Assembly (NCBI GenBank): GCA_023488905.1
Contig: JAMDCQ010000013.1
Coordinates: 1 to 64,000, forward strand
DNA: 64,000 nucleotides
Source of the DNA: Candidatus Bathyarchaeota archaeon
GTDB lineage: Archaea; Thermoproteota; Bathyarchaeia; Bathyarchaeales; Bathycorpusculaceae
Direction of reading: 5' to 3'
Positions 27,837-32,845 of the stretch are shown here, piece by piece. A program made the position numbers and the translations under genes. Each line of letters begins with the position of its first letter. The first letter of the stretch is position 1. The notes below the pieces were generated by a model. The model searched no databases. It saw only the letters and a list, made by a program, of their open reading frames with translations, and was not told the origin of the DNA.

Positions 27837-28484
27837 TTATAGTTCATGCTTAAAATAGTGCTCAAGCAGCCGCCGAGTCCCCCGCCGCATAATCTCAGAC
27901 AGCGTCGCAGGACTAATTCCCAGCTTCTTAGACAACTCCGTAGTATCGATTTGGCGGGGAAAATCAAAAAAGCCGCTTTTCAGAGCCAACCAAAAAATCC
28001 GCTCCTGATTCTCCGTTAAAACCCCGATTTGCTGCTCAAACTTGCCCACTTTACGCACATTAACCTTGTAGCCTGCTTTTTCCAAATCAGAAATTATGCC
28101 TTTGTATGCATCAGGGGTAGGCACCATGAAACTGTAGCTGATGATGTTCCCGTGCACACTTTTTCCAGAAACCAAAAAAGCATCGTGCCCCAAAATCGTG
28201 TTGCATACCCCGCAGCCTTCGCTTTCCAGCCACACCGCGGATTTGCCTTCCACGCGGCCTTTGGCGGTGAGTTCTTTAGGGACTTTTTTGGCTTGTTCCT
28301 CACCTAAATCCATGAGGTGCCGAACGGAACCAGTGGTGGAGCTGCGTACGTCTACTACTTTTAGGTGTTTGAAGCCGAGGGCGGCGAGTTTTTTGACCAT
28401 GTGGCATTCTTTGTTTTCGATTTCTATAACGACGTGGTAGGGTTCCCGCCAAGTATCAACCAAACTGATCAGCCCTGCATGCAT
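27837..28484 (-). CDS. HTH_10-type transcription regulator, probable hcp regulator
   Basis: From ATG 28484 the protein has 215 residues. The C-terminal helix-turn-helix is TTELSKKLGISPATLSEIMRRGTRRLLEHYF, as in bacterio-opsin-activator (HTH_10) regulators of archaea. The N-terminal sensor part carries ESEGCGVCNTILG, a CGVC pair that could bind a metal or iron-sulfur cluster or respond to thiol stress. It ends 87 bases before hcp, so it is a plausible NO/redox-responsive controller of that gene. The longer frame upstream to 28715 runs through the divergent gene and is rejected. Confidence 0.82.
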   Translation of the reverse strand: MHAGLISLVDTWREPYHVVIEIENKECHMVKKLAALGFKHLKVVDVRSSTTGSVRHLMDLGEEQAKKVPKELTAKGRVEGKSAVWLESEGCGVCNTILGHDAFLVSGKSVHGNIISYSFMVPTPDAYKGIISDLEKAGYKVNVRKVGKFEQQIGVLTENQERIFWLALKSGFFDFPRQIDTTELSKKLGISPATLSEIMRRGTRRLLEHYFKHEL

Positions 28485-28560
28485 GGTAGGGGATGTTGCT
28501 GTTAAAGGTAGTTGCTTCAATAAGGTTAATACGTTAGCCGATGAGATATTCGAAACAAGG

Positions 28561-29472
28561 ATGGTTCCAGAAATCACGGCTAAAAAAACCGGATCCAACT
28601 CCAGAACAGTCACTGTGGGGCTTATCCAAACCGCAGTCTCCGAAAACATAGCGGAGAACATGCAGAAAACCCAGCGGAAAATCGCGGAAGCCGCAGAGAA
28701 AGACGCACAAATCATCTGTCTCCAAGAACTCTACCGAACAAGATACTTCCCACAGCAGGAAAACGTTGACGCCGCACCCCTTGCCGAACCCATTCCTGGA
28801 CCATCCACTGATGCACTATCAAAATTAGCCAAAAAACATGGCGTAGTCATCGTTGCGCCGCTGTTTGAGAAAGCCGCAGACGGCAAATACTACAACACCG
28901 CCGTGGTAATCGACGCCGACGGCGAACTCTTGGGCACCTACCGCAAAATCCACATACCTTATGACCCCTACTTCTACGAAAAAACCTACTTCGCAGAAGG
29001 CAACACCCCTTACCAAGTCTTTAAAACCCATTATGGGCGCGTCTCCGCGCTTATCTGCTACGACCAATGGTTCCCCGAAGCCGCCCGCATTTGCTGCTTA
29101 CAAGGTGCTGAAATCATCTTTTATCCCACCGCCATCGGATACGTCAAAGGCTACACTTCCGCTGACGGCGACTGGCATGACGCGTGGCGAACCGTACAGC
29201 GAGCACACGCCATCGCAAACGGCGTCCACGTGGCGGCTGTGAACCGTGTGGGTGAAGAGGGCGAGTTAGAGTTTTGGGGCGGCAGCTTCGTGTGCGACTC
29301 GTTTGGCAAAGTCCTCGCGGAAGCCAGTACCACAAAAGAAGAAATCGTAATCGCCCAAGTTGACATAGGCAAAAACCAGAAAATCCAAGAAGGCTGGGGT
29401 TTTTTGCGCAACAGACGCCCCGACACCTACAACCTCCTTGTCGAAAAACAAGCTGGAGGCGCCAAACCATGA
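28561..29472 (+). CDS. aguB: N-carbamoylputrescine amidohydrolase, nitrilase superfamily
   Basis: From ATG 28561 the protein has 303 residues. The nitrilase triad is visible: Glu in IICLQELYRTRYFPQ, Lys in YRKIHIP and Cys in LICYDQWFPEAAR. The sequence is close to AguB, which converts N-carbamoylputrescine to putrescine, CO2 and ammonia. The stop overlaps the ATG of the agmatine deiminase gene (ATGA), fixing the pathway assignment: AguA makes the substrate of AguB. In this arrangement the second enzyme is encoded first. Together they are the bacterial/plant-style agmatine route to polyamines. Confidence 0.9.
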   Translation: MVPEITAKKTGSNSRTVTVGLIQTAVSENIAENMQKTQRKIAEAAEKDAQIICLQELYRTRYFPQQENVDAAPLAEPIPGPSTDALSKLAKKHGVVIVAPLFEKAADGKYYNTAVVIDADGELLGTYRKIHIPYDPYFYEKTYFAEGNTPYQVFKTHYGRVSALICYDQWFPEAARICCLQGAEIIFYPTAIGYVKGYTSADGDWHDAWRTVQRAHAIANGVHVAAVNRVGEEGELEFWGGSFVCDSFGKVLAEASTTKEEIVIAQVDIGKNQKIQEGWGFLRNRRPDTYNLLVEKQAGGAKP

Positions 29473-30515
29473 GCTGCAACAGCTCCTGCCGCGAATTGGG
29501 GTTTGTTATGCCTGCAGAGTGGCAGCAGCACACCGCGATTTGGCTCGCGTGGCCCTATGACCCCACCACTTTCCCCGACCGCGTCGAGCGGGTAGAGCAG
29601 ACTTATGTGCAGATTGTCAAAGAGATTCATGAAAGCGAAGAAGTCAACCTCTTCGTCATCGATGAGCCCACCAAAAAGAAAGCTACAACCATGTTTAAGC
29701 AAGCAGGCATAGACCTAAGCAGGGTTCACATCTACGTTTCTGATTATGCGGACGTGTGGTTCCGCGACTACGGTCCCATCTTCGTCAAAAACCCGCGTCA
29801 CGAGTTGGCGATGATTCACTGGGAATTTAACAGTTGGGGCGAAAAATACGAGACGCTCCTCAAAGACAAAGAAATCCCCGACGTAATCAACAAAGACATG
29901 AGGCTCAGATGCTTCAAGCCTGGTATCGTCTTAGAAGGCGGCTCCATCGACGTCAACGGCGAAGGCACCCTACTCACCACCGAGCAGTGCCTGCTAAACA
30001 GCAACCGCAACCCGCATTTAAACAAACAAAAAATCGAGCAGTATCTCTCCGAATTTTTGGGTGTGCGCCACTTCATTTGGCTAAAGCGGGGTATCTTAGG
30101 TGATGATACGGATGGTCACATCGACGACTTAGCCCGTTTCGTAAACCCAACCACAATTGTATGCGCGTTTGAAGATGACCCCAACGACGCAGACTACGAA
30201 GCCCTAAAAGAAAACTACGAGTTACTCTGCAAGTCAGTTGACCAAGACGGCAACCCCCTAACCATCATCAATCTGCCTATGCCCAAAGTAGAAAGCGACG
30301 AAGGCTATCGCCTCCCCGCAAGCTACACCAACTTTTACATAGGCAACACCAAAGTGCTGGTGCCAGTTTTTGATCACCCCAACGACCAAAAAGCCCTCTC
30401 AATTCTGCAGGAGCTGTTTCCAACCCGCAAAGTCGTCGGCATATGCTGCAAAGACCTCGTCTACGGCTTCGGAACCCTACACTGCATCAGCCAGCAGCAG
30501 CCCTGCCCCGCCTAA
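29469..30515 (+). CDS. aguA: Agmatine deiminase
   Basis: The 348 residues carry the PAD_porph catalytic set: Asp in VWFRDYGPIF, His in DTDGHIDDLARF and the nucleophilic Cys in GFGTLHCISQQQ, plus WLAWPYDPTTFPDRVERVE near the N-terminus and the LEGGSIDVNGEGT loop. It hydrolyses agmatine to N-carbamoylputrescine and ammonia. The first 16 residues are cysteine- and serine-rich and lie before the usual start (MPAEWQQHTAIW); translation may begin at that second ATG. It is co-transcribed with aguB, with a 4-base overlap. Confidence 0.92.
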   Translation: MSCNSSCRELGFVMPAEWQQHTAIWLAWPYDPTTFPDRVERVEQTYVQIVKEIHESEEVNLFVIDEPTKKKATTMFKQAGIDLSRVHIYVSDYADVWFRDYGPIFVKNPRHELAMIHWEFNSWGEKYETLLKDKEIPDVINKDMRLRCFKPGIVLEGGSIDVNGEGTLLTTEQCLLNSNRNPHLNKQKIEQYLSEFLGVRHFIWLKRGILGDDTDGHIDDLARFVNPTTIVCAFEDDPNDADYEALKENYELLCKSVDQDGNPLTIINLPMPKVESDEGYRLPASYTNFYIGNTKVLVPVFDHPNDQKALSILQELFPTRKVVGICCKDLVYGFGTLHCISQQQPCPA

Positions 30516-30631
30516 CAGGCGTTGACATGTAGAGCAATTTCTTCTGCCTCTGTTTTTTAGTTAAGTTTAAACTCTCCAGTGGAATAATAGGTACTTCCAC
30601 AAAAATTTAGGAGCGCAGAGGGGTAAAGGGC

Positions 30632-32845
30632 ATGGTAAATCAGCAGCCGATTCGCAGCCGCGGCGTAAAAGTGCTAAAAGCAGTCTCGTCACCCCTCAGA
30701 CTGCAAATCCTCAACCTACTCTTCGACAAAAGCGCCCTCTCCTACACCGAACTTATGAACGAGCTGAAAATGAATCCCAGCCGAGACGCTGGAAGATTTG
30801 CCTATCACCTCAAGTTTATGCTTAAGGCAGGTTTGGTTGAGGCAGATGTCGAAGCAAAGAAGTATTTCCTCACCGACCTCGGCAAGATGGTGCTTGATGT
30901 CGCCGACCGCGTGGAGAAAAAAGCAGTTAAACCCCGCGGCATGATGGTGCGCACGTCGCATTTAACGTTGGAAGAGTTTGACGCTAACAAAATCGCCAAT
31001 TCACTTATCAAAGAAGCCAAGGTGCCCGCGGAACTCGCGCAGAAAGCCGCCAAAGAAGCAGAAAAACGCCTGATTAAATCAAAAATCAAGTACCTGACTT
31101 CGCCTCTTATCCGCGAAGTAGTCAACAGCATCCTCGTCGAGACAGGCCACGAAGACTACCGCCACAAACTCACCCGTGTCGGTATGCCAATCCACGAAGT
31201 GACAGGGCTTATCGAGTCGAGGGAAATAGCGGCGGACGGTGCCTCTGCAATCCGCATAGCAGGCCAAACCGTCATAGGCGAATATACGCTGCTAAACGTT
31301 TTCCCACGCGACATCGCCGATGCACACCTCTCAGGCGCAATACACCTTGACGGCCTCGGCACTTGGGTGCTTAAACCCAACGACATCATCCACGACATCC
31401 GCTATTTCCTCCAAAACGGCATAAAACTCGACAACCCCCAAATGATTTCAATGGAACCACCCAGAGACTTCAAAACCGCCTTATCCACCGCGTTTAACGT
31501 GATGCTGCACGCCAGCAAAGAAACCAACAACTCACAAGCATTCAACTACTTCAACATCGCCCTCTCACCCTACGCTCACGGAATGGACACTGAAAAACTC
31601 AAAGAAAGCCTAAGCCTTTTCATCCTAAACCTCAACCAGCATGTGGAAACCACTTTGGGCTTGGAGTTGTGTATTCCAAAACTCACCGCAGAAAAAGAAT
31701 CCACCGGACCTCACGGTAAAACTGGCAAATACGGCGATTACGCCCAAGAGTGCCTACTTTTGACTACACTTATCCTCGACATCTTCCTCGAAGAAAGCGC
31801 CCACAAACCGCTTCAAAACCCCAAACTGGTGATAAAAATTAACAGCGCCGCCTTAGGGGATGAAGCAGCGAAAGCTGTTTTGCTTAAAGCGCACCAACTG
31901 GCAGCACAGGGTGGCGTAGTATACTTTGCTAACCTAACAAAAAAAGACGGCGAAAATGTGGCTTACTCTTCGTCAGGCATAAAATTTGCTTCGGACCTGA
32001 CAGGTGACTGGGAAACTGACACCCTGCGCACTGGCTGCCTTGGCTCAGTCACCATCAACCTGCCCCGCATCGCCATGGAAAGCGAACGGGACAAAAACAA
32101 ATTCCTCGACCTCCTAAAAGAACGCCTAGAACTAGCCGCCCGCGCCCTCACAATCAAATCCAATGCGCTAAAGCAGTTCGGCAAAAACAACCTACCCTTC
32201 TTGCTTCAGAAAGGCAACGGCGACACCTACTTCAGGCTGGAAAACTGTTCCCGCATGATCAGCCTTGCGGGGTTCCGTGAAGCCGTAGAAGCTTTTACTG
32301 GAAAAAGCGTCATGATCGAGGAGGGTCGCAAGTTCTCCGAAGAAATAATCGCAAGCACCTTAGCTTTCAAGCAGAAAGTAGGCAGAAAATACGGCAAACG
32401 CCTCTACCCCGTAATGCTGGGCAACCGCGAAGCCGCCGAACGCCTCGCACAGCTTGACATCGAACGTTACGGCGTGGCTAAAGTCAAGTTTTCGGGAACA
32501 CGGGATAAACCCTACTATTCCACGCTTAAACGTATCGGCATAAAACCCGCTCAGCCGCTGCTTGCTCCACAAGGAACCACTGAAATGGCGCAGCTACTTC
32601 GGGGCTTAACTGCAGGCGGAAGCCTCGACATCTTTGAGTTAGAAGGCGCAGAATTCAGTCCCGAAGCCCTACTCGATTTAACCAAACGCATAATCGAGAA
32701 CGGCGCAAGCGAATTCTTCACCTACAACCGAGCGGTATGCTACTGTAGTAACTGCAAGAAAAACTATTACGGCACATTCCACAAATGCCCCACCTGCGGC
32801 TCAATGAGCACGCTAACGACTTTTGACCGATTCACATCAACCTAA
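30632..32845 (+). CDS. HTH / ATP-cone / NrdD-like protein without the radical glycine
   Basis: The 737 residues have an ArsR-like winged helix (about 1-95, SSPLRLQILNLLF, FAYHLKFMLKAGLVE), an ATP-cone (about 100-200) and an anaerobic ribonucleotide reductase fold with RTGCLGSVTINLPRIAM. The C-terminal zinc site is complete (CYCSNC ... CPTCG). NrdD enzymes then end with R-(I/V)-x-G-Y containing the glycyl radical; here the sequence reads TTFDRFTST and stops, placing serine at the glycine. No NrdG activase is adjacent. It may therefore be a nucleotide-sensing regulator related in logic to NrdR, rather than an enzyme; this is inference. Annotation as NrdD would be misleading. Confidence 0.78.
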   Translation: MVNQQPIRSRGVKVLKAVSSPLRLQILNLLFDKSALSYTELMNELKMNPSRDAGRFAYHLKFMLKAGLVEADVEAKKYFLTDLGKMVLDVADRVEKKAVKPRGMMVRTSHLTLEEFDANKIANSLIKEAKVPAELAQKAAKEAEKRLIKSKIKYLTSPLIREVVNSILVETGHEDYRHKLTRVGMPIHEVTGLIESREIAADGASAIRIAGQTVIGEYTLLNVFPRDIADAHLSGAIHLDGLGTWVLKPNDIIHDIRYFLQNGIKLDNPQMISMEPPRDFKTALSTAFNVMLHASKETNNSQAFNYFNIALSPYAHGMDTEKLKESLSLFILNLNQHVETTLGLELCIPKLTAEKESTGPHGKTGKYGDYAQECLLLTTLILDIFLEESAHKPLQNPKLVIKINSAALGDEAAKAVLLKAHQLAAQGGVVYFANLTKKDGENVAYSSSGIKFASDLTGDWETDTLRTGCLGSVTINLPRIAMESERDKNKFLDLLKERLELAARALTIKSNALKQFGKNNLPFLLQKGNGDTYFRLENCSRMISLAGFREAVEAFTGKSVMIEEGRKFSEEIIASTLAFKQKVGRKYGKRLYPVMLGNREAAERLAQLDIERYGVAKVKFSGTRDKPYYSTLKRIGIKPAQPLLAPQGTTEMAQLLRGLTAGGSLDIFELEGAEFSPEALLDLTKRIIENGASEFFTYNRAVCYCSNCKKNYYGTFHKCPTCGSMSTLTTFDRFTST

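Follow-up and report, generated by a model that had tools for sequence, protein, structure and literature searches.

What does a protein do that joins a winged helix and an ATP-cone to the body of a class III ribonucleotide reductase (RNR), when that body lacks its radical glycine? The question is raised by a gene in a 64,000-nucleotide stretch of Candidatus Bathyarchaeota DNA, here called the window. A preliminary description, made from the letters of the stretch, had reported this combination of domains and proposed that the protein may be a dNTP-sensing regulator of nrd genes built from a dead reductase. We followed this proposal through the protein, its relatives, its gene neighborhoods, and its promoters.

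Architecture of the protein and loss of the reductase residues

The reading frame is present at the stated positions and intact (Table 1), and the order of a helix-turn-helix (HTH), an ATP-cone, and an NrdD fold was borne out by Pfam. HTH_5 matched residues 20-70 with 31.7 bits and DUF7347 residues 14-88 with 29.9 bits (curated cut-offs of 22 and 27.6), while the ATP-cone scored 32.7 bits over residues 104-177 (cut-off 25.8) and the NRDD domain 213.6 bits over residues 212-733 (cut-off 26.2, E = 7e-63). Within the winged helix, an alignment of relatives revealed the conserved stretch R-D-A-G-[KR]-F-x-Y-H-L. The NCBIfam matches of the protein included the NrdD equivalog TIGR02487 at 234 bits, below its cut-off of 326.35, and did not include the NrdR family TIGR00244. 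An AlphaFold model built with 33 relatives as input had a mean pLDDT of 84.8, and the best 36 PDB matches found for it by Foldseek were all class III reductases; the NrdDs of T4, T. maritima, S. thermophilus, and P. copri were among the matches, with E = 8e-27 to 9d3x. Positions 28483-30515 of the window, just upstream of the regulator gene, hold a carbon-nitrogen hydrolase-like gene that overlaps by 4 bases an agmatine-deiminase-like gene (PF04371), a pair that probably belongs to a putrescine-type pathway and has no relation to the regulator.

Table 1. Positions of the protein, its parts and its promoter element in the window, and of the nrd operon of the same genome.
Feature	Position	Strand	Basis or remark
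HTH/ATP-cone/dead-NrdD protein, 737 aa	30632..32845	+	ATG to stop, stop codon included
Putative core promoter and own operator, GTTAAGTTTAAACTCTCC	30560..30577	+	Conserved in genus alignment
ArsR-like winged helix, residues 14-88	30671..30895	+	Pfam PF01022 and PF24038; invariant columns
Divergent ATP-cone, residues 104-177	30941..31162	+	Pfam PF03477; invariant R107, T108, S109, E114
NrdD-like body, residues 212-733	31265..32830	+	Pfam PF13597; Foldseek to class III NrdDs
First active-site Cys lost, LKPND for LGPYC, D251	31370..31384	+	Cys in 0/146 regulators, 16/16 NrdDs
Thiyl-radical Cys loop lost, SSGI for SMCC, residues ~447-450	31970..31981	+	Cys in 0/146 regulators, 16/16 NrdDs
Zinc ribbon CxxC...CxxC retained, C705, C708, C719, C722	32744..32797	+	Invariant in Bathyarchaeia alignment
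C-terminus RFTST-stop in place of the glycyl-radical loop RxxGY	32828..32845	+	Own NrdD: RVVGYLRP
nrdR-nrdD-nrdG operon	L079:13474-16747 (G000:C17:97474-100747)		Also L230-L259

The protein ends in CxxC...CPTCGSMSTLTTFDRFTST-stop with no RxxGY near its C-terminus, and comparison of RFTST-stop with the RVVGYLRP of the true NrdD in the same genome confirmed that the glycyl-radical motif is gone. The body had also been called intact up to the zinc site, which is wrong: both active-site cysteine positions (C79 and C290 in T4 numbering) are lost as well, GPYC having become KPND and SMCC having become SSGI. The case for a dead reductase is thus stronger than first claimed, with two cysteines missing besides the radical glycine. 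The losses are kept in the orthologues, since neither catalytic cysteine occurs in any of 146 distinct relatives (a set without the ammonia oxidisers, which we counted apart), and none of the 146 has RxxGY in its C-terminal 80 residues. The sole RxxGF match in that region, in L195, lies ahead of the zinc ribbon. We also considered whether a glycyl motif might stand elsewhere or be hidden by a frameshift and ruled this out, the stop being at the same place in nearly all congeners. Each zinc-ribbon cysteine, by comparison, is present in at least 136 of the 146 relatives. The ammonia-oxidiser forms end at the zinc ribbon or shortly after it, and both active-site cysteines are absent from them too. 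Because the radical glycine and both active-site cysteines are absent, known RNR chemistry is impossible for the window protein, and it is nearly certain that the protein is dead as a reductase.

Distribution, selection, and ancestry of the HTH-NrdD family

A protein search of 257 Bathyarchaeia genomes returned a strong relative (E < 1e-80) in about 197; the named relatives are Candidatus Bathyarchaeota, Bathycorpusculum among them. Families f25 and f27 have a true NrdD only, without the HTH form. When the search was widened to the phylum, the same architecture was observed in many further families of Thermoproteota, ammonia-oxidising archaea included, and among these were nine sampled genomes, from three families, with an archaeal ammonia monooxygenase.

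Purifying selection on the protein is strong, above all in the winged helix and the cone. Within the window's genus dN/dS was about 0.10 overall, with 0.028 for the winged helix, 0.037 for the cone, and about 0.13 (0.127) for the reductase body, all of these being rough values as dS is close to saturation. In a maximum-likelihood tree of the cone and body, a branch with support of 100/100 separated the true NrdDs from all HTH forms; a number of the deep branches are long, and we are unsure how they are ordered. With a root placed inside NrdD, a single origin of the HTH form would follow, before the split of the ammonia oxidisers and Bathyarchaeia. In five shorter relatives of 539-617 aa (L191, L193, L197, L200, and L203) the zinc ribbon is missing and the NrdD body is further reduced; they may represent further decay or a separate sub-family.

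Gene linkage and promoter elements

The idea that the protein regulates nrd genes fared differently at the level of the family and in the genome from which it came: in many lineages the gene is genetically tied to nrdD or nrdJ, but no link was found in the window's genome. In 15 of 15 ammonia-oxidiser genomes examined, the regulator gene lies directly upstream of a class II nrdJ on the same strand, and the same arrangement was observed in G535, from elsewhere in Thermoproteota, and in Bathyarchaeia family f18. In families f4, f6, f9, f21, f22, and f23 it lies directly upstream of a class III nrdD. The adjoining NrdDs fall in two distant clades of the tree, so that with NrdJ there are three types of partner enzyme, and the regulator has thus been kept with an RNR gene though the type of enzyme changes. 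Nor is it bound to class III, since in families f10, f13, f15, and f18 the regulator co-occurs with a class II enzyme and no NrdD was matched. In the stretches examined from f2, f3, f5, f10, f13, and f15, no RNR gene adjoins the regulator.

In Nitrosopumilus-like ammonia oxidisers (L300-L306, L312), about 110 bp before nrdJ are strongly conserved (GTAACGGTGTCAACAAAATTGATCCAAAG...TTTTTTGCCGCAG...). This leader had no match to a known RNA motif in Rfam, and the conserved stretch between the regulator and nrdJ is possibly an operator or a leader RNA. GATCYAA repeats also occur before the regulator and nrdJ in Nitrosopumilus-like genomes (L312, L300-L307), with four copies in L307. These repeats, seen in close relatives, are suggestive of a possible binding site for the ammonia-oxidiser regulator, and we left them out of the evidence for the regulator reading. 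The nrdJ of three genomes (G013, G016, and G025, at L260, L276, and L275) are read as frames of 920-1280 aa in which the PF02867 match is long or split, which may point to inteins or extra domains.

Expectation-maximisation recovered an element, ACTYTAATTTTTTAAACA, before the regulator gene in most of the families sampled, with a motif log-likelihood of 179 compared with 62-64 for shuffled sequences. A score above 14 bits was reached by 37 of 185 regulator upstream regions, a set that includes related genomes, and by 2 of 454 other genes; the upstream region of one of these two also belongs to a regulator. The element is also found at the nrdD promoter of G222 and at the nrdJ promoters of G211 and G034. 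Six genomes (G028, G066, G069, G223, G211, and G222) have a single genome-wide match each, four of them at the regulator and two at an RNR promoter; among four further genomes with a single match, three have it before other genes and one has it where no gene could be assigned. The search pattern was fixed after upstream regions had been inspected. Over 30 genomes it gave 33 matches and a reversed control pattern about 30, so the evidence is the position of the matches and not their number. There is overlap between ACTYTAATTTTTTAAACA and the apparent TATA box, and part of the element may be core promoter.

A second pattern, the inverted repeat TTTAWAC-N6-GTWYAAA, was observed at nrdJ or nrdD without mismatch in f10, f15, and f22 and with one mismatch in f21, compared with 1 of 454 other genes when up to one mismatch was allowed. 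In G222 the ACTYTAATTTTTTAAACA element and the inverted repeat are fused as ACTTTAATTTTTTAAACTATTCTGTACAAA.

The picture is narrower in the window's own genus. At two mismatches or fewer, GTTAAGTTTAAACTCTCC has one site only in the window's genome, upstream of the regulator gene, and it occurs solely before that gene in five of six genomes of the genus; in the sixth, G096, three mismatches separate the gene's own site from GTTAAGTTTAAACTCTCC. The window's genome encodes one true NrdD, whose gene lies 65 kb downstream of the regulator within the same contig, as the middle member of nrdR-nrdD-nrdG (Table 1), and no class I or II reductase was matched in that genome. The products of the operon are a 152-aa NrdR, a 708-aa NrdD with MCCR and RVVGYL, and a 225-aa NrdG-like radical-SAM activase, the last named by its position and sequence features. 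An NrdG-like gene, whose presence the preliminary description had left to be checked, therefore exists, beside the true nrdD rather than beside the window gene. Since a textbook NrdR is encoded with nrdD and nrdG, the window protein is no stand-in for a missing NrdR in its own genome. We also considered it as a regulator of the nrdR operon in the genus and rejected this: GTTAAGTTTAAACTCTCC was sought there, and only NrdR-like boxes were found, two of them spaced by about 32 bp and lying below a TATA box. The distance from the regulator to the nrd genes is 65, 18, 10, and 4 kb in four genomes of the genus and elsewhere 435 kb, or the genes are on other contigs; linkage within the genus is not general. 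The sequence of the window's genome thus gives no support for a role of the protein at RNR genes there, and its action may be confined to its own gene and to targets whose site is weaker.

NrdR itself (TIGR00244 above its cut-off) was detected in 69 of 163 more complete Bathyarchaeia genomes, nearly all of them in f1, the window's family. Its near limitation to one family suggests transfer of a bacterial-type nrdR-nrdD-nrdG cassette. Elsewhere in Bathyarchaeia, outside f1, the HTH-NrdD protein is the sole candidate RNR regulator that we can name.

A probable regulator derived from a reductase, and alternatives to it

We hypothesize that the HTH-NrdD protein is a one-component transcription regulator derived from a class III RNR subunit, a dimer that would bind an operator and make RNR expression track the nucleotide pool. 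As a whole we consider this explanation probable. Within it, dimer formation, DNA binding, the sign of regulation, and nucleotide sensing are what we infer: that the protein is a DNA-binding regulator is predicted as very likely, and that the family regulates RNR genes as likely. A winged helix would have been joined to an NrdD copy with its ATP-cone, barrel, and zinc ribbon, and the chemistry would then have gone with the first active-site cysteine, the thiyl-radical cysteine, and the glycyl radical. Most likely the protein would form an NrdD-like dimer and so bring two winged helices to an AT-rich operator, one that shares sequence with the core promoter of the regulator gene and, in several lineages, with that of nrdD or nrdJ. 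Binding of nucleotides to pockets taken over from the reductase, allosteric or substrate, would alter DNA binding, and RNR expression would follow the dNTP or NTP pool. Repression is the likelier sign of regulation because the promoter element overlaps the apparent TATA region. On a wider claim we are evenly divided, namely that the family is ancient and was made once from a class III reductase, with its chemistry dead and its sensing pockets kept, that it controls NrdD or the B12-dependent NrdJ, and that it fills the place of the bacterial NrdR in Bathyarchaeia, ammonia oxidisers, and other Thermoproteota.

The putative job is that of NrdR (TIGR00244), the zinc ribbon and ATP-cone repressor of RNR genes, in that DNA binding and an RNR-type nucleotide-binding domain are combined in one protein; like NrdR, the family is linked to RNR genes and has a conserved element before its own gene. 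The build is different. NrdR has about 150 aa with an N-terminal zinc ribbon followed by the cone, whereas the 737-aa window protein starts with a winged helix, contains an NrdD barrel, and has its zinc ribbon at the C-terminus; its cone lacks KRDG, and its promoter element is unlike the tandem NrdR boxes about three helix turns apart. The two proteins co-occur in the window's family. With NrdD (TIGR02487, PF13597) the window protein has in common the fold and the order of cone, barrel, and zinc ribbon, but it has no active-site cysteines or glycyl radical, carries an N-terminal winged helix, and falls below the equivalog cut-off. Its N-terminal 75 residues resemble the archaeal ArsR/DUF7347 winged-helix regulators (PF01022, PF24038), except that here the winged helix is fused to a reductase body. 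In BirA, NadR, and PutA, which are enzyme-derived or enzyme-fused regulators, an enzyme fold is re-used as a sensor and is catalytically still active; the window family likewise re-uses an enzyme fold in a putative regulator, but its catalytic residues are lost. We know of no enzyme-derived regulator built from ribonucleotide reductase, and our searches of openly licensed papers found no account of the HTH-NrdD protein.

As far as we found, the control of RNR expression in archaea without NrdR is undescribed, and the HTH-NrdD family is a concrete and widely conserved candidate for it, present in most Bathyarchaeia and, in ammonia-oxidising archaea (a group with culturable members), encoded beside an RNR gene. 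If the proposal is true, the family would plainly illustrate how an enzyme can become the sensor of its own pathway. A practical caution follows for annotation: NrdD-like genes in aerobic archaea are not necessarily reductases.

Both ATP and dATP are ligands of the cone in NrdR (PMC9110341). In class III enzymes the cone takes ATP or dATP, and dNTPs occupy a site at the dimer interface (PMC11226230). In the HTH-NrdD proteins the KRDG signature of the cone is replaced by RTSH or RTSR, the RTS being invariant in regulators from Bathyarchaeia to ammonia oxidisers, and in the stretch that contains the specificity site (Glu290 and Asn298 in P. copri; PMC11226230), the window protein does not align by sequence. 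We put nucleotide sensing by the protein at about even or a little better. A DNA-binding regulator could instead answer to a signal other than dNTPs (substrate NTPs, a redox change felt at the zinc ribbon, or a partner protein, for instance RNR itself) and use its cone and barrel only for dimerisation. The uniform change of KRDG to RTS would fit this, as would the faster evolution of the body than of the winged helix, the invariance of the zinc cysteines in the Bathyarchaeia alignment, and some relatives of 540-620 aa in which the zinc ribbon is missing and the body further reduced. We nevertheless regard it as unlikely: the whole NrdD fold, and not a small dimerisation domain, is kept in distant lineages, which suggests that the ligand pockets matter, and the RTS variant is partly common to catalytically intact archaeal NrdDs, those of the same lineages having RTTDG or a similar sequence in the cone.

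The operon-like linkage to RNR genes could also mean that the dead NrdD pairs with an active RNR and tunes its activity, with the winged helix as a protein-interaction or oligomerisation module; NrdD folds do dimerise in class III RNR. This is improbable, as the neighbor is often NrdJ of class II, whose fold is so distantly related to NrdD that the two are unlikely to form a heterodimer, the region of the recognition helix is among the most conserved parts, and the gene, which in many genomes has no linkage to RNR, carries a conserved promoter element of its own. That the protein is still an enzyme, either an unusual reductase or another nucleotide enzyme working through other residues, would account for the retained NrdD body and the strong Pfam match, but we give it very little credence with both catalytic cysteines and the glycyl radical absent in every relative and a separate active NrdD or NrdJ in the genomes. 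A pseudogene or recently inactivated copy, suggested by the lost catalytic residues, is refuted for practical purposes by a full-length protein that is nearly class-wide, common to distant lineages, and evolving at a dN/dS of ~0.1.

The regulator derived from a class III subunit remains our preferred reading. A separate observation concerns the enzymes: the catalytically intact archaeal NrdDs at L062-L065, L077, L082, and L083 have RTTDG, RRSDG, or a similar sequence in the cone and not KRDG, and the allosteric behavior of such NrdDs may differ from that of the bacterial enzymes.
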